In this document: positions 5,809-28,932 of the stretch, one piece after another | Layout of the letters: each line of letters opens with the position of its first letter | Position numbering within the stretch: position 1 is the stretch's first letter | Virus record (IMG/VR): IMGVR_UViG_3300042507_001284 | Location: 1-36,663 of that record | Direction: 5' to 3' (one strand) | DNA length: 36,663 nt | DNA from: a virus | Program-made: the position numbers and the translations under genes | Notes under the pieces: generated by a model | Databases searched by the model: none | Told to the model about the DNA's origin: nothing | Seen by the model: the letters and a program-made list of their open reading frames with translations, nothing else

Positions 5809-5865
5809 GTTAGCGCGCACTAACGTTAGCGCGCACTGGCGTTAGTGCACACTGACGTTAGTAGC
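5809..5865. repeat. Three 16-bp tandem repeats plus a partial copy (iteron-like)
   Basis: The consensus GTTAGCGCGCACTGAC occurs at 5809-5824, 5825-5840 and 5841-5856 without gaps. The third copy has GTGCAC in place of GCGCGC, and a partial GTTAG begins at 5857. Each unit contains a self-complementary core (GCGCGC or GTGCAC), so a symmetric protein could bind each one. They start one base after the second 28-bp block. Confidence 0.85.
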
Positions 5866-6054: not shown

Positions 6055-6510
6055 ATGAGTTTTCATTCACTGCCACTTGTCATCAACGAAGTGCGCGCCA
6101 CAGAGGCGGTGCTTAACCGCATCTACGACGCCGCCAAGCTCGGCTTGAAGGGCGACAACTTAGCGCTTGCCGCAGGCATGGTGCCCACCGCCTACCGGCA
6201 GTTGTGCGAGTTAGACAGAGCGGCGCAGTTGGCCGAACAAAAAGGCCGCGCCGACGGGGAGCTGCTGGCGTCTAAGCAACTGCACAAGGCAGCCGAGCAG
6301 GGCGACGCCAAGGCAGCGCTGGCGGTCTTGCAAAACGTCCACGGCTGGGTAGCCAAGCAGGCCATCACAGTGGACGTCAACCAACAGATCAGCATCCTTG
6401 GCGCACTGGCCGAAGCCGAGCGCAGGGCAGCAGACGTGGTGGACGTTATCGCACACGAACCAAGCCCCGCACTGCAAGCGCGGCTGGCCCCACACAAACA
6501 AAGCGTCTGA
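6055..6510 (+). CDS. Terminase small subunit (putative)
   Basis: This 151-residue protein lies directly before the large terminase with a TGATG overlap, the usual place of the DNA-recognition subunit that selects phage DNA for packaging. The N-terminal ~55 residues (IYDAAKLGLKGDNLALAAGM then PTAYRQLCE) look like a helix-turn-helix. The middle is helical (HKAAEQGDAKAALAVLQNVHG), as in the oligomerisation region of small terminases. Sequence similarity in this family is low, so the call rests on size, predicted fold and position. No ribosome site is visible before the ATG, which is unusual for this genome. Confidence 0.75.
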   Translation: MSFHSLPLVINEVRATEAVLNRIYDAAKLGLKGDNLALAAGMVPTAYRQLCELDRAAQLAEQKGRADGELLASKQLHKAAEQGDAKAALAVLQNVHGWVAKQAITVDVNQQISILGALAEAERRAADVVDVIAHEPSPALQARLAPHKQSV

Positions 6511-21694: not shown

Positions 21695-22233
21695 TCACAG
21701 TCACCTACGGCAAAGGCTTCCAAATCGCAGACCCCGAGCGGGTCAAGGTCAAGTTCCGTGAAAAGATCATGATTGTGCAAGATGGCCTGCAACAACTGAT
21801 CGACAGTGGGGCTGTGCAGTCCACCCTCGAAGACTGTACCCTCAAGCACTATTTCACCCCCAAGGACGAAACTTACGGGTGCTGCGCCTACGCCAGGGAA
21901 ATGATGATTCCGAAGGGAACTTTGATCATTGGCAAGATTCACCGTCACCAGCACTTGAACTTTATCTCTAAGGGTAAGGTCACAGTGTTCACGGAATTTG
22001 GGCAAAAGCACCTTGAGGGGCCGTGCACCTTCGTGTCTGAGGTAGGTTTGAAACGGGCTGTTTATGCCGAAGAAGACACACTTTGGACGACTGTTCACTT
22101 GACTCAGTTTGAATCTGAGTCAGAACTGGATAAAATCGAGCAAGAGGTCATTTCACCATCTTATGACGAGATGGGCCTGATTGCTTGCGTTGACGCTTTG
22201 CCGAAACTTGCGGCACAAGGAGAGAAATTATGA
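21691..22233 (+). CDS. Cupin-fold phage protein, 180 residues
   Basis: The middle segment reads REMMIPKGTLIIGKIHRHQH, LNFISKGKVTVFTEFGQKHL and EGPCTFVSEVGLKRAVYAEE, the order of strands in a cupin barrel. HRHQH gives the metal-binding His pair, and VHLT later may give a third His. Similar cupin proteins are found in phage genomes near ejection genes; the substrate is unknown. The ATG at 21691 overlaps the previous TGA; a longer frame start at 21643 lies in the upstream gene. The N-terminal ~60 residues (ADPERVKVKFREKIMIVQDG) are a short helical extension. Confidence 0.75.
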   Translation: MITVTYGKGFQIADPERVKVKFREKIMIVQDGLQQLIDSGAVQSTLEDCTLKHYFTPKDETYGCCAYAREMMIPKGTLIIGKIHRHQHLNFISKGKVTVFTEFGQKHLEGPCTFVSEVGLKRAVYAEEDTLWTTVHLTQFESESELDKIEQEVISPSYDEMGLIACVDALPKLAAQGEKL

Positions 22234-23687
22234 CATGGGGTTTTGTAGCCGTTGCGGCTGCCACAGTGGTGGGCGCAAAAATGGGGTCTGACGCCGCAGA
22301 AAGCGCCGCAGAAACTCAAGTTGCCGGTGCTGAAGCAGCGGGGGCCGTGTCTGAACGAATAGCCGACAAGCAAATCGCAGCGCAAACAACAGCGCTGGAC
22401 AGAACGCTTGCCGCAGGTGAAACAGCGCTTGACAAGCAGATTACCGCAGCTGACACAGCGCTTAACCGAACAATAACTGCAAACAAAGAAACCGTTGCTT
22501 TGCAAATTGCAGCGGATAAAGATACTGTTGATAAGCAAATCAATGCCGCTACGGTCGCGTTGAATGCCACAATTGCTGCTCAAGAACGCGCTGTCGCCGC
22601 AAACAACGCCGCAGCCGCCGCAGCGCTTGAAAAACAAATTGCCGCTCAAAGAGAAGCCCTTGATAAACAGTTGGGCTTGCAGCGCGAGTTGTTCGACAAA
22701 CAGGTCGAGAACCTCCGTTCGTTCAAGGAAGCGGGTGAAGCCGGTCAATCTCGGATGATGGACCTGTTGGGTCTAAGCGGTAACACAAAGGCTCCTGGCT
22801 ATGGTTCAGCAGCCAACACCTTTAAGGTAGAAGGCTTTGACCCGAACACGTTGTTCAAAGAGTTCAGCGCCGCAGAAATGGAGCAAGACCCCGGCTATGC
22901 GTTTCGCGTTGCCGAGGGTCAAAAAGCCATTGAGCGTTCGACTGCCGCCCGAGGCGGTTTGCAGTCTGGTGCTGCGCTTAAAGCCGCTGCTCGATTCGGT
23001 CAGGAGATGGGTTCTCAGGAATACCAGAACGCATTCAACCGATTCCAAGCCAACAAAGCGTTTCAGGCCCAGGAGTACGGCAACGCTTTCAACCGGTTCA
23101 TAAGTGAACGCCAAAGCCTGCTGGCACCGCTGCAAGGGTTGACCGCCAGTGGTCAAGCCGCTGCCGCTGGTCAAGCTGCTGCTGCTGGTAACTTGTCGAG
23201 CGCGTCGTCGCAAGCACTTCAAAATTTCGGTGCCGGTCAAGCCGCCGCTTACGGTAACTACGGGGCCAACATCGGCAGTGCTGCGCTGGCGCAGGGTGCT
23301 GGTCAAGCTGCTGCCTACGGTAATTTCGGCGCTGCTCAATCAGGCGCGTTTGGTGCATCGAATGCTGCCCGTCAAAGTGCCTACGGTCAAGCTGGGTCCG
23401 GTCTTGCGAATGCCTACGGTCAGTTTGGTTCCAATACGGCCAATGCTTACGGTCAAGCAGGGTCTAATGCAGCCAATGCTTTTGGCAACTATGGCAGCAA
23501 CTTGAGCAACATCTACGGCCAGTCGGGTGCCGGTCAAATCAATGCGATCACTGGTGCAGCCAACGCAAGAGCCGCAGGTCAGATTGGTTCTGCGAATGCA
23601 TTCACGAATGCCTTGAACACAGGTGTCAGTTTGTACGGTATGTACAACCAGAATCAGTTGTTGAACAGATACCTCTCACGAGGTTAA
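22230..23687 (+). CDS. Ejection / DNA transfer protein with hendecad repeats
   Basis: A 485-residue P22 gp7-like internal virion protein. The central segment DPGYAFRVAEGQKAIERSTA, RGGLQSGAALKAAARFGQE and SQEYQNAFNRF is the conserved core of this family. Residues 46-165 form about eleven consecutive 11-residue repeats (consensus DKQIAAxxTAL), predicted as a long amphipathic helix. Residues ~305-470 are low-complexity Gly/Ala/Tyr/Asn-rich (GQAAAYGN, YGQAGSN). A hydrophobic N-terminus (GFVAVAAATVVGA) may insert in membranes. The protein would leave the virion at infection to help DNA cross the envelope. It starts as ATGA with AAGGAG ahead. Confidence 0.8.
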   Translation: MTWGFVAVAAATVVGAKMGSDAAESAAETQVAGAEAAGAVSERIADKQIAAQTTALDRTLAAGETALDKQITAADTALNRTITANKETVALQIAADKDTVDKQINAATVALNATIAAQERAVAANNAAAAAALEKQIAAQREALDKQLGLQRELFDKQVENLRSFKEAGEAGQSRMMDLLGLSGNTKAPGYGSAANTFKVEGFDPNTLFKEFSAAEMEQDPGYAFRVAEGQKAIERSTAARGGLQSGAALKAAARFGQEMGSQEYQNAFNRFQANKAFQAQEYGNAFNRFISERQSLLAPLQGLTASGQAAAAGQAAAAGNLSSASSQALQNFGAGQAAAYGNYGANIGSAALAQGAGQAAAYGNFGAAQSGAFGASNAARQSAYGQAGSGLANAYGQFGSNTANAYGQAGSNAANAFGNYGSNLSNIYGQSGAGQINAITGAANARAAGQIGSANAFTNALNTGVSLYGMYNQNQLLNRYLSRG

Positions 23688-23696
23688 GGAATAAAC

Positions 23697-25166
23697 ATGG
23701 CGCTCGACCCCAGCATCATCCTTGGTGCAAAGTCACCACAATTCGACCTGTCGCAATTCTCGCCAATGAACACGCTGGCGAGCGCGATGAAACTCAAGCA
23801 GCTTCAGCAAGAAGGCGACATCAACGCTTTGAATCTTCGGGAGCGTCGAGGGCTGCAAGAGTTTTTGAGCGGTGGCCGGGAAACAGAAGCGCCTGACCTT
23901 AACTCACCTGAAGCCCGTACCGCACTCGTCACAAGGTTCGGCGAAACTGGTCGTAAGGTTGCCACCGGCTTGACTGGTATTGACAAAGCCCGTGCTGACC
24001 TTCTCAAAGCTGAAACTGATGAGAAAACACGCCGCAACGCTTTGACTGTCTCCAAGACAGCGCAGTACCGTGACCTGCTTGCTAACGTGAACGACCAGCG
24101 TTCTGCGATTCGGTGGATTCAGTTGCAGCAGAACGATCCTGACTTGGTTGACTCGCCTATCGCCAAAGTTTCGATCATGGACGCCGCCCGTAGCATCCCT
24201 GCTGACCCTGAAGGGTTCAACCAGTGGAAGCAGCAAGCCGCTCTGGGTATCAGCAAGTTCATCGAGTTGAACAAACCATCGACCATGCAGATCAACCGTG
24301 GCGGGGCGACAGACGTTATCCAAACCCCAGGTTTGGGCGGCGCGCCTAAGACCGTTGGCTCGTTTGTAGATGTGCCTTTGCCAGCGGATGTGCAAGCGCA
24401 GAACTTGCAAAGAGCAGCAGCTAGCCGCCCTGTCACCACGGTCCAGTTGCCGCCGCAAGAGAAAGCCGAGCAGATTGATCGCGGCAAGTTGTTGGTTGAC
24501 CAATACAAAGACATCTCCAAAGCAGCCGGACTGGCCGCTAAGACGCTGCCGTCGCTTGACACCAACTTGAACATTCTGAACAAAGGCTTTACGACTGGTT
24601 TTGGCACAGAAACCAAAGCTGCTGGCGCAAGCGTGCTGGCCGCGCTGGGCGTCAGCAACGCCGATAAATTTGCCACCAACGCGCAAATCTTTCAGGCGAA
24701 AGCCACAGAAGCCGTGCTGCAAAAGCAGTTGGAACAAAAAGGCCCGCAGACCGAAGCTGACGCGAAGCGTATCGACGCCGTGGGCGCGCAACTTGGCAAG
24801 ACCACCGACGGTAACAAGTTCTTGCTGACCGTTGCCAAAGAGCAGCTGCGCCGCGATATAGATCAGCGCAACTTCTACGACGCCTGGTGGAAGAAAAACA
24901 AGACCTACGACGGCGCCGAAGACGCATGGTTTGCTGGCGAAGGCGGCAGGTCATTGTTCGACCGCCCAGCGCTCAAGTCATATGCAGCGCCTGCTGAAAG
25001 CACTGCCGCGCAGATTCCTACGACCGCTACGCCTACACGCGCAGCACCCGCACCTGCCATCCCGCAAGCCGCGATTGATGCTCTTAGAGCTGGCCGGGGT
25101 ACTGACGCACAGTTTGACGCCATCTTTGGTCCTGGAGCTGCGAAACGTGCCAGAGGAGGCAAGTAA
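23697..25166 (+). CDS. Putative ejection protein 2, 489 residues
   Basis: The protein begins MALDPSIILGAKSPQFDLSQ and is mostly helical with coiled segments (NTLASAMKLKQLQQEGDINA). It lies between two other predicted ejection proteins, the slot of P22 gp20/gp16. The C-terminus is Ala/Pro/Thr-rich and ends in a basic tail (PGAAKRARGGK). No enzyme motif is seen. Sequence similarity in this family is poor, so the assignment rests mainly on order and composition. The ribosome site AAGGA precedes the ATG. Confidence 0.7.
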   Translation: MALDPSIILGAKSPQFDLSQFSPMNTLASAMKLKQLQQEGDINALNLRERRGLQEFLSGGRETEAPDLNSPEARTALVTRFGETGRKVATGLTGIDKARADLLKAETDEKTRRNALTVSKTAQYRDLLANVNDQRSAIRWIQLQQNDPDLVDSPIAKVSIMDAARSIPADPEGFNQWKQQAALGISKFIELNKPSTMQINRGGATDVIQTPGLGGAPKTVGSFVDVPLPADVQAQNLQRAAASRPVTTVQLPPQEKAEQIDRGKLLVDQYKDISKAAGLAAKTLPSLDTNLNILNKGFTTGFGTETKAAGASVLAALGVSNADKFATNAQIFQAKATEAVLQKQLEQKGPQTEADAKRIDAVGAQLGKTTDGNKFLLTVAKEQLRRDIDQRNFYDAWWKKNKTYDGAEDAWFAGEGGRSLFDRPALKSYAAPAESTAAQIPTTATPTRAAPAPAIPQAAIDALRAGRGTDAQFDAIFGPGAAKRARGGK

Positions 25167-27605
25167 ATGGCCGCTAATCCTTTTGCTGAATTTGCCCCTG
25201 CATCGGCGGCTACAGTAAATCCGTTTGCTGAATTTGCGGCTGCACCAGTCCAAACCGAAATACCTAGCGCCCGCCGAGAGCCGAGCTTTCTGACGCGGTT
25301 TGGCCGCAGCGCGGCTTCGCTGGCTGACGTTACGGTGGGCGGCGTGCTGCCTGCCGTTGTGCAGCAAGTGGGCTACCCGCTGGCGCGTTTGGGCCGTTCG
25401 CCGCAAGAAGCGCAGGCCGCTACCGCGCGCCTGGTTAGCGCAGTCGAGTCGCCAGTTGGCAAAGCCTTTGGCGTCACTGACACACCGGAATACCAGCAAG
25501 AAGCTGGCCGTCAGTTGGTGGACTTCATCGGGCAGAACTTCCAAAAGGGCGCCAAGTGGATCGCCGAAAAGACCGGCCTTCCTCAGTCGGACGTGGAAAA
25601 CTACATGGGTACCGCGACCGTGGCTGCGCCTACCGCTGTCAAGCCCGTGGCGAGTACAGTTAAGAAGGCGGCTGCGCCGGTAGTTGAGAAAGCCGTTATC
25701 GGCGCGAAGATGCCGTTTGAGCCTATGCTTCAAGCCCGCCGCGAACGCCAGTCGCTGGAAGACTACGCCCGTGGCCCGCAGATCGACGCAGCGGCTGATG
25801 CGCAGCGTTTGGGCATTGCGCTTAACCCAACAGACATCCAGCCTACCGTCGGCCCCAAGCTGCTGTCGATGGCCGCTGGCCCCCGCGCACCAGAAGCGTT
25901 GGCTAACGCCAACAAGAACCAAGTGCGTAAGGTGGCACTTGGCGACATGAACTTGCCGGAAACCACGCAGCTCAACAGCCCAAAGGCGTTCCAGCAAGCG
26001 CGTGCTCAAGTGGCCGCGCCCTACGAACAGGTCAAGAAGCTGCCTATCCAGCAGGCCGACGACGCGATGATCCAACAGTTGGAAGCGCTACGCGCAGACT
26101 TGGACGTCATCGGCGCCAAAGAGTACGCCCCGGCCATTGGCAAGATCGTTGACGACGCGATTGCCAAGACGCAGACGGGCCTGACCGGTGAGCAGCTGCT
26201 CAAGAACATCAGCGTGCTGCGTGAGCGCGCACGCAAGACATACAACAACAAAGCTGCCACCACCGAGGCGCTCGACATCGCCGACACCAACCTCAAGGTG
26301 GCGACTGTGTTGGAATCGATGATCGACAACAGCATCTTCAACCCGAAGCTGTTGAGCGAGTTCCGCGACGCCCGTCAAAAGATGGCGCGCACGTACGCCT
26401 ACGAAGGTGCGACGGACCTGAACACCGGCATGGTGGACGTGGGCAAACTTGCCCGTATCACGGCCAAAGACAACGCCTTGACCGGCGACATTGCGTCGCT
26501 GGGCAAGATCGCCGGTAACTTCCCCGACGTGTTCAGCGGTCAGCCCACACCTGGCTTCTTGAGCGCGCCGCGTCTGAGCCGGTCCGGTGCTGGCGGCGCG
26601 GCTGGCGCGTTGGTCGGCTCACAGTTCGGCTTGACCGGCTCTATTTTGGGCGGTGTGCTGGGCGGTGCGGCGGGCGAAACAGCCAGCGCCTTGGCCGCTC
26701 GTCGGCTGGCCTCGCCTGGCTACCAAGCTGGCCTGACCCTGCGCGACGCGCGCATTCCGGTCAACCAGTTGGCCGCGTCGATGCAGCCTATCCCGCAGAG
26801 CAACGCCTTGGTACCCTACCAAGCACCTGTGGAAGTGCTCGGCCCCGGCGAAGGCCCATACCGGCCAAACTTTGTCATGCAGCCCAACCAGTACGGCCCC
26901 CGCGTCACACCGGAAACGCCAGACCTGCGTAACGCGTTGCCTGCACCCAGCGCGGAAGGCACGCTCAACATGCTGCGCGCTGAAGACGCGCGTCGTGGTC
27001 AGATGTCTCGCACGCTGGGCCAGCAGGCCGAAGCGCAGCAGGCAGCAGCCGAAGCTGCGGCGCGCCGCCCCACCAGCGGTGCGGTGGAGATGCAGATCAA
27101 CCCGCTGACTGGGTTGCCCGAGATCGCTACCGGCATCAAGGGCGCCACGCCAGCCACGTTCCAAGACTTTGGTGCGTCGCTCAAGTCGGCCACCGACAAG
27201 GCCACGGCTGGCCGCATGTTCGACTTGACCGCAGCGGAAAAGGTTGCGTTCGACAAGACACGCGTTGACCTGGCTGAAGTTGTGTCGGGCATGAAAACGC
27301 TAAACGACAAAGCGCTTGCGGCCAAGATGCAAGACCGCGCTTGGGTGCAAGACACTATCGCCAAAGCGCAAGAGAAGGCGCGCGCGTTCGACGCTATCGC
27401 CGCCCGCGCCAGCAACGAGCGCCTGCGTCAAGACGCCATGATGAAGCGTGAGCAGATGATGGATTTGCTGGAAACCCTTGAAGGGCAGTTCAGCAAAGCC
27501 CGTCCGGTCAAGACCGGCGGTCAAGGCCCAAAGACGCGCGCGTTCCAGCGCAACATGCTGCGCCCAGATGGTGATGAGATTCAAAACGCATTGGTGAAGA
27601 AATGA
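25167..27605 (+). CDS. Putative ejection protein 3, 812 residues
   Basis: The longest gene of the window. It begins MAANPFAEFAPASAATVNPF, with the heptad NPFAEFA repeated at residues 4-10 and 18-24. The rest is Ala-rich and helical. A Gly/Ala-rich hydrophobic segment near residues 472-500 (GGAAGALVGSQFGLTGSILG) looks membrane-inserting. The C-terminal ~200 residues are coiled (EQMMDLLETLEGQF). I see no lytic transglycosylase motif. Size, position and composition match the large ejection protein (P22 gp16-like) that forms part of the DNA channel. It begins directly after the previous TAA. Confidence 0.72.
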   Translation: MAANPFAEFAPASAATVNPFAEFAAAPVQTEIPSARREPSFLTRFGRSAASLADVTVGGVLPAVVQQVGYPLARLGRSPQEAQAATARLVSAVESPVGKAFGVTDTPEYQQEAGRQLVDFIGQNFQKGAKWIAEKTGLPQSDVENYMGTATVAAPTAVKPVASTVKKAAAPVVEKAVIGAKMPFEPMLQARRERQSLEDYARGPQIDAAADAQRLGIALNPTDIQPTVGPKLLSMAAGPRAPEALANANKNQVRKVALGDMNLPETTQLNSPKAFQQARAQVAAPYEQVKKLPIQQADDAMIQQLEALRADLDVIGAKEYAPAIGKIVDDAIAKTQTGLTGEQLLKNISVLRERARKTYNNKAATTEALDIADTNLKVATVLESMIDNSIFNPKLLSEFRDARQKMARTYAYEGATDLNTGMVDVGKLARITAKDNALTGDIASLGKIAGNFPDVFSGQPTPGFLSAPRLSRSGAGGAAGALVGSQFGLTGSILGGVLGGAAGETASALAARRLASPGYQAGLTLRDARIPVNQLAASMQPIPQSNALVPYQAPVEVLGPGEGPYRPNFVMQPNQYGPRVTPETPDLRNALPAPSAEGTLNMLRAEDARRGQMSRTLGQQAEAQQAAAEAAARRPTSGAVEMQINPLTGLPEIATGIKGATPATFQDFGASLKSATDKATAGRMFDLTAAEKVAFDKTRVDLAEVVSGMKTLNDKALAAKMQDRAWVQDTIAKAQEKARAFDAIAARASNERLRQDAMMKREQMMDLLETLEGQFSKARPVKTGGQGPKTRAFQRNMLRPDGDEIQNALVKK

Positions 27606-27947: not shown

Positions 27948-28429
27948 TGGACCCGATCACATTGGCGCTTGCTGGCATGGCGGCTGTTCAAAAGACAGTC
28001 TCCATGATTAAAGAAGCCTCATCGACGATAGATGATGTGCGCAGTCTTGGCCCGTTGCTTGGCAGATACTTTGAGCAAAAGCACGAAGTCACCAAAGCGC
28101 TGAACCAAGCCAAAAGCAGCGGCGGCTCCAACATGGGCAAGGCGGTTCAGATTGAACTTGACCTGAAGGCCCAGCGGGACTTTGAGGAACAAGTCAAAGG
28201 CTTGTTCTTTCCAAACAACATGGACGTTTGGAACAGCATCATGGTCCGTGTGGCCGAGATGGACAAGCAAGACAAGATCGACATGCAGTTGGCCCGTGAT
28301 CGCGCATTGAGAGCCAAGAAAGAGCGTGAAGAACTCGTCGAAATTCTGATTGTGGTTGGCGGTGTAACGCTGATTTTTCTTTTGGTGGGCTTCGGGGCCT
28401 ACCTTGTCATGAGCGTAAGGAGTGCGTAA
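27947..28429 (+). CDS. Membrane-anchored helical protein of the lysis region, 160 residues
   Basis: The protein begins MDPITLALAGMAAVQKTVSM. The central region is helical and charged (DKQDKIDMQLARDRALRAKK), and the C-terminal span is about residues 130-156 (ILIVVGGVTLIFLLVGFGAY). Proteins with this start (MDPIT.A...) and one C-terminal span occur before holins in several aquatic phages; I know no tested function. It starts in TGATG and its TAA overlaps the holin ATG. A role in lysis or in membrane remodelling is inferred from position. Confidence 0.65.
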   Translation: MDPITLALAGMAAVQKTVSMIKEASSTIDDVRSLGPLLGRYFEQKHEVTKALNQAKSSGGSNMGKAVQIELDLKAQRDFEEQVKGLFFPNNMDVWNSIMVRVAEMDKQDKIDMQLARDRALRAKKEREELVEILIVVGGVTLIFLLVGFGAYLVMSVRSA

Positions 28430-28932
28430 TGCTGTCTCTCATTTCAACCCTCGGGGGTTTGCTGATCTCCGGCCTGCCCAAACTGTTGGAGTACTTCCAG
28501 AACAAGGCCGACCAGAAGCACGAGTTGGCGCTGGCCCGAGTTCAGACCGAGCGTGAACTCCAACTGGCGGCTGCTGGTTTTGCAGCGCAGGCCCGTGTCG
28601 AGGAGATTCGCACTGAACAGGTGGCGATGGAAACCGATGCCCGTATGACCGAGGCAGCGCTGGCGCACGATGCCAAGGTGCTTGAGAAGGCCGCTTCATG
28701 GGTGTCCAGTTATGTGGGCACAGTGCGCCCAACAGTGACCTACATCTTCGTAATTGAGTTGGTGGCAATCAACGCCTTCATGGCTTGGTATCTATACCAT
28801 CACCCCGGCTTGATTCAGAACATCGATGATGTCATCAAGTACTCCGACCTGATCTTCTCCAGCGACGAGATGGCGATGTTGGGCGGTATCATCGGGTTCT
28901 GGTTCGGGTCACGTAACTGGGGCAAGAAGTGA
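28429..28932 (+). CDS. Holin (3TM / GTA_holin-like)
   Basis: A 167-residue protein with an N-terminal hydrophobic segment (STLGGLLISGLPKLLEYF), a charged helix rich in Glu/Arg, the sequence VRPTVTYIFVIELVAINAFM that starts a membrane span, and a C-terminal span MAMLGGIIGFWFGSRN. This order (helix, then VRP-T, two spans, FWFGsR) is typical of the 3TM holin family that opens the inner membrane for the endolysin encoded next. Its last codons overlap the endolysin GTG as GTGA. Confidence 0.8.
   Translation: MLSLISTLGGLLISGLPKLLEYFQNKADQKHELALARVQTERELQLAAAGFAAQARVEEIRTEQVAMETDARMTEAALAHDAKVLEKAASWVSSYVGTVRPTVTYIFVIELVAINAFMAWYLYHHPGLIQNIDDVIKYSDLIFSSDEMAMLGGIIGFWFGSRNWGKK

Follow-up and report, generated by a model that had tools for sequence, protein, structure and literature searches.

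Long helical repeats, some of which change in length by whole units, are found in several known systems. The cytoplasmic region of bacterial chemoreceptors (MCPs) is an antiparallel helical hairpin with a conserved tip, in which arm lengths change by matched insertions or deletions of whole heptads, giving discrete length classes (Alexander and Zhulin 2007, as cited in PMC5907407). The tape-measure proteins of siphophages carry a single array of 11-residue units with W/F markers, duplicated or lost in whole numbers (PMC3271669). The H protein of phiX174 forms a decameric DNA-piloting tube of single helices, part hendecad and part heptad, with hendecads such as QKEIAEMQNET and with 18 of 23 inward positions occupied by N, Q or R (PMC7354561). 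Among short-tailed phages, T7 gp14/gp15 and DEV gp72/gp73 form helical, DNA-wide ejection channels (PMC8954989, PMC10925440), and P22 is reported to inject about 12 copies of gp7 (PMC8402733).

Here we describe a 485-aa protein, encoded at 22230-23687 on the plus strand of IMG/VR virus record IMGVR_UViG_3300042507_001284 (the window, 36,663 nucleotides), that combines elements of these systems. It carries two arrays of 11-residue units, and in 111 of 112 scorable homologues the two arms that contain them differ in length by the same number of residues—the arms therefore very probably lie side by side as one hairpin of adjustable length. How the small P22 gp7/T7 gp14-type ejection proteins are folded, and how short-tailed phages bridge an envelope of given thickness, are the questions on which this finding bears; a phmmer search found no solved structure for P22 gp7.

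Two hendecad arrays in one gene

The window contains a P22-type morphogenesis cluster: portal (Pfam P22_portal, E=1e-179), scaffold, coat (1e-39), a P22_Tail-4-like factor, an Hc3-type closure protein, and two probable tail genes, followed by three consecutive genes of 485, 489 and 812 codons. The first of these matches PHROG 598 'DNA ejection' (E=2e-19), the family to which P22 gp7 itself belongs (E=2e-95). It does not match the narrower Pfam model PF25688 P22_gp7 at E<=0.01, which P22 gp7 hits at 9e-129; hence, membership is claimed at PHROG level only. The 489-aa (23697-25166, plus strand) and 812-aa (25167-27605, plus strand) genes have no Pfam or PHROG match at E<=0.01, although the gene order is conserved in relatives, and they are assigned to the P22 gp20 and gp16 positions by place and size only.

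An earlier note, made from the sequence alone, reported eleven consecutive 11-residue repeats at residues 46-165, with hydrophobic residues at positions 4 and 11 and a partly repeated 33-base DNA unit. This observation is confirmed. The units run from residue 46 to residue 166 (22365-22727), so the end given in the note, 22724, is one codon short of 11x11=121 residues. BLOSUM autocorrelation gives z=9.6 at a shift of 11, 7.3 at 22, and 6.7 at 33, against a maximum of 4.2 over any shift in 2000 shuffles; there are 42 identities at shift 11 against 12.3 expected. The consensus is DKQIAAQxxAL, with unit 8 (AANNAAAAAAL, residues 123-133, 22596-22628) and unit 11 (DKQVENLRSFK) imperfect. Repetition at the DNA level is real but limited—2.5 copies of a 33-bp period with 76% matches at 22388-22471. 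The hydrophobicity spectrum alone does not exceed shuffles at the 11/3-helix angle (98 degrees), so the claim of helicity rests on structure prediction and on the conserved pattern.

The note missed a second array, at residues ~307-449 (23148-23576), which is rich in Gly, Ala, Asn, Ser and Tyr and about 2% charged. Its clearest units are found at residues 384-438 (AYGQAGSNxAN), with z=8.1 at shift 11 and 9.2 at shift 22, and it has its own 33-bp tandem repeat at 23378-23479. None of the other genes among the 23 scanned comes near this periodicity; a weaker 11-residue period (z=4.3 over residues 1-110) is observed in a 167-aa protein of unknown function (phrog_6637) at 28429-28932, plus strand. 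Elsewhere in the window, a tandem array of about 3.3 copies of a 16-bp unit (GTTAGCGCGCACTGAC) at 5809-5861 precedes the gene at 6055, and is a possible regulatory or packaging site.

Matched arm lengths across homologues

A scan of IMG/VR kept 80 loci, and later scans added more; relatives were also found in cultured Vibrio, Rhodoferax and DSL-LC05 phages, while a genome collection returned one MAG hit only. In a MAFFT alignment of 42 homologues we counted residues between invariant anchors, defining an N-arm from Q30 to G169 (22317-22736; 139 residues apart in the window) and a C-arm from L298 to G450 (23121-23579; 152 residues apart). N runs from 29 to 150 and C from 42 to 163; C = N + 13 in all 42 homologues, and every difference is a multiple of 11. 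The tip region between the arms (residues 170-297, 22737-23120) carries conserved DPGYAFR and SQEYQNAFN motifs, but its length (97-180 residues between G169 and L298) varies without relation to the arms (r=0.04). Tail length does not track the arms either (r=-0.48 over all, -0.08 in the close clade). Within the tip, at residues ~264-292 (about 23019-23105), there is an optional 18-residue duplication (QEYQNAFNRFQANKAFQA / QEYGNAFNRF), equivalent to five helical turns, that some homologues lack and that is not mirrored by the arms.

The rule, found on 42 sequences, holds in 111 of 113 non-redundant homologues. Of the two misfits, L027 is an ORF cut by its contig end and cannot be scored, and L160 (C-N = 23) has a diverged C-terminal anchor region, so it may be misaligned or a true exception; hence, 69 of 70 further scorable sequences obey the rule. 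Permuting C among rows gives 22 matches on average and 38 at most, against 111 of 112. The N classes are 29+11k with k=0 to 11, and the window is at k=10. One homologue, L171 (N=80, C=93), departs by 7 residues and mirrors this change too, so matching is not restricted to 11-residue steps. Two homologues, L003 (6001-7485) and L028 (6001-7191), end in a Peptidase_S74 (endosialidase chaperone) domain after the C-arm (Pfam E=7e-9 and 4e-10), which would lie at the open end of the hairpin; the arm rule still holds in both.

INDEPENDENCE. On a core tree built from the tip region alone, N changes 33 times, C changes 33 times, and their difference changes once. This tree has few columns and is weakly resolved, and we therefore rely on a conservative count: with branches under 95% SH-aLRT collapsed and polytomies resolved in favour of fewest changes, 19 and 20 changes remain, with one of the difference. 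The same pairing is seen in DNA. The window gene and its nearest relative, L001, differ by two indels only and are otherwise gapless at 85% identity—66 bp (two units) at residue 60 (22408-22473) and 66 bp at residue 383 (23378-23443), both present in the window and absent from L001. Two further homologues, L012 and L016 (93.6% identical), differ by 33 bp in each arm, the second split 6+27 by the aligner.

Matching may extend to levels as well as totals. Within the window's clade, an irregular N-arm unit (GNAAAAAAL type; in the window, unit 8) lies 43 residues before G169, and an irregular C-arm unit (AxxxGAG type; residues 349-361, 23274-23312) lies 58 residues after L298, in all members where both motifs are recognised except L028, which lost one unit on the tip side and has distances of 32 and 47. 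Matching thus holds segment by segment in the one case that tests it; however, this comparison covers recognisable motifs in one clade, was made after the length law had been seen, and is supporting rather than independent evidence.

Predicted structure and possible mechanism

AlphaFold2 predicts a helix at residues 16-180, a tip, and a second helix at 248-456. The mean pLDDT is 67, with values of 72-91 in the N-arm (means per ten residues, from residue 31 on) and mostly 68-75 in the C-arm, lower past residue 420; the pTM is only 0.35, and contact between the arms is inferred rather than read from the model. For the shortest class, helices are predicted at 21-72 and 125-198. Many of the top PDB fold matches of the window model are long antiparallel hairpins (Tc toxin channel, chemoreceptor, SMC, MukB), with chemoreceptor 2ch7 second, but none reaches E<=0.001; the short model gives only weak helical matches, some to alpha-pore toxins. 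Significant matches in a viral structure library are uncultured phage relatives, several labelled DNA transfer protein. PDB sequence searches returned nothing relevant.

Over 25 clade members, the N-arm unit on an 11/3 wheel has charged positions 8, 1, 9 and 2 on one side, while the opposite side has Gln at 3 and 7, flanked by an Ala face (6, 10) and a Leu/Ile face (11, 4); the N-arm is 23% charged. The C-arm is 28% Ala, 20% Gly and 1.9% charged, with Gly at 3, 6 and 8, Tyr at 2 and 5, and Asn at 4 and 11. Two lateral apolar faces, with an amide face between them and a charged back, are what would be expected of a stave in a helical barrel. Residues 1-22 (22230-22295) form an almost uncharged Gly/Ala/Val-rich segment with low pLDDT, which may be a membrane segment at the open end of the hairpin.

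The explanation we favour is that the protein is a remote member of the P22 gp7 (T7 gp14-position) ejection proteins built as an antiparallel helical hairpin: the N-arm would run from the membrane-like N-terminus to the conserved tip, and the C-arm back beside it to the C-tail, each N-arm unit lying level with one C-arm unit. In this view, a gain or loss of units persists only when mirrored, and hairpin length is quantised in steps of 11 residues. After ejection, the hairpins would assemble side by side into a barrel, with the charged face of the N-arm outward, its Ala and Leu/Ile faces against neighbouring helices, and Gln of the N-arm and Asn of the C-arm lining a DNA channel, as amides do in the phiX174 H tube. 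Unit number would then set the distance between the termini and the tip, making the arms an adjustable spacer of the DNA conduit. Helices rise 1.5 A per residue, so each unit would add about 1.65 nm, the window's arms would be about 21-23 nm long, and those of the shortest class 4-6 nm. Our analysis itself establishes the two arrays, the exact length matching, the level matching in the window's clade, and the prediction of helices. The side-by-side antiparallel pairing is a strong inference that we consider very probable, whereas packaging and ejection of the protein, the oligomer, and the amide-lined conduit are inferred from sequence and by analogy; we put the conduit of hairpins at a probability of roughly 0.6. 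That unit number acts as a functional ruler, matching the conduit to the envelope or tail geometry of each phage-host pair from about 4 nm (P22-like) to about 22 nm, is more tentative still. Portal open-frame length does not follow arm length (r=-0.01, n=21), and the gp20- and gp16-position genes show no compensating change in size, so among these nothing was found to which the length is tuned.

The interpretation in the earlier note—a long straight or right-handed coiled coil serving as a trans-periplasm tube or membrane-lining helix in a P22 gp7-type protein—is only partly supported. The long helix is predicted, and the remote relation to P22 gp7 is borne out. The two outcomes that the note had named as contrary to its reading, loss of register in close relatives and a predicted compact fold, did not occur: the register is kept while unit number varies. 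However, a lone coiled coil is rejected as a complete description because of the second array and the length law. The long array is also not universal, as relatives range from 0 to 11 extra units; a fixed trans-periplasmic tube is therefore not the family's common role, and if the arm is a tube its length must vary from about 4 to 22 nm. A tube or membrane-lining function remains inferential.

Several other readings must be considered. The hairpin could be a storage or packing element within the virion, for example standing around the portal or its barrel, that is refolded on ejection, so that arm length would matter for packing and not for a conduit; N4 gp51 forms an alpha-helical hairpin beside the portal in the virion and is gone after ejection (PMC12633501), and ejection proteins change fold between virion and envelope (PMC8954989). 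We consider this possible but unlikely, given the lack of correlation with the portal and because the Gln/Asn faces seem better explained by a DNA-facing or self-associating surface. Somewhat less likely again is pairing between neighbouring subunits, or a rod-like dimer or trimer stalk acting as a tether of adjustable length. Length and level matching do not distinguish pairing within a chain from pairing between chains, and the two S74-carrying relatives hint at trimers, since that chaperone is typical of trimeric fibres; however, two separate non-polar faces with Gln between them are more readily expected of a barrel stave than of a two- or three-stranded rod.

A membrane-lying arrangement, in which the 11/3 helices lie flat on or in the membrane like the 11-mer helices of synuclein or perilipin and line the outer-membrane pore, is very doubtful. 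T7 gp14 and DEV gp73, in the same operon position, are membrane pore proteins (PMC8954989, PMC10925440), and the C-arm is uncharged and Gly/Ala/Tyr-rich, but the N-arm is 23% charged with a narrow hydrophobic stripe, and lying in a membrane gives no reason for exact 1:1 length matching. Although MAFFT placed the anchor columns, an alignment artefact, with gaps set in multiples of 11, is contradicted by the data: N and C are residue counts between anchors that are the same letters in 42/42 rows and nearly all of 113, they do not depend on gaps inside the arms, and pairwise DNA alignments show the same paired indels.

Comparison with known systems

Each ingredient described here has a precedent, and hendecads in DNA-conducting phage proteins are not new in themselves; however, we found no report, in the open-access literature, of hendecad or matched-arm repeats in a podophage ejection protein. 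Length changes were mirrored at least 19 times—in effect, evolution has repeated a double-mutant experiment in which changes persist only when both arms change together. This gives the likely fold of a whole ejection-protein family and a precise register, and it offers natural, quantised lengths for studying DNA-conducting helical assemblies.

P22 gp7 belongs to the same remote-homology family and occupies the same place before two larger ejection genes. P22 gp7 gave no match to a profile that includes long members, but a profile of the shortest class aligns to seven P22-type gp7 sequences with probability 96.5 and E=7e-10, with no gap within the N-side match (up to the tip) and none in the C-side stretch aligned. 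P22 gp7 (229 aa) therefore looks like the k=0 hairpin, with no extra units where the window has ten, which would make the model testable in P22. The DEV and T7 channel proteins share the operon position, but no hendecad arrays or matched-length arms were noted for them, and the window family has no sequence match to relevant PDB chains.

The phiX174 H tube shares hendecads of similar wording (QKEIAEMQNET vs DKQIAAQTTAL), a 121-residue helical segment, and an amide-rich face for a DNA channel; it differs in conducting ssDNA and in having no second array, and we claim no homology. Tape-measure proteins share the gain and loss of whole 11-residue units, and their length is functional, but they have no mirrored second array and belong to long-tailed phages. 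The chemoreceptor hairpin is a parallel in behaviour, and symmetric whole-period indels are its known signature. The protein described here differs in that the unit is 11 residues rather than 7, the two arms have quite different compositions, and it is a phage ejection protein with no detected sequence relation to chemoreceptors; what the two share is matched indels in two arms joined by a conserved tip.
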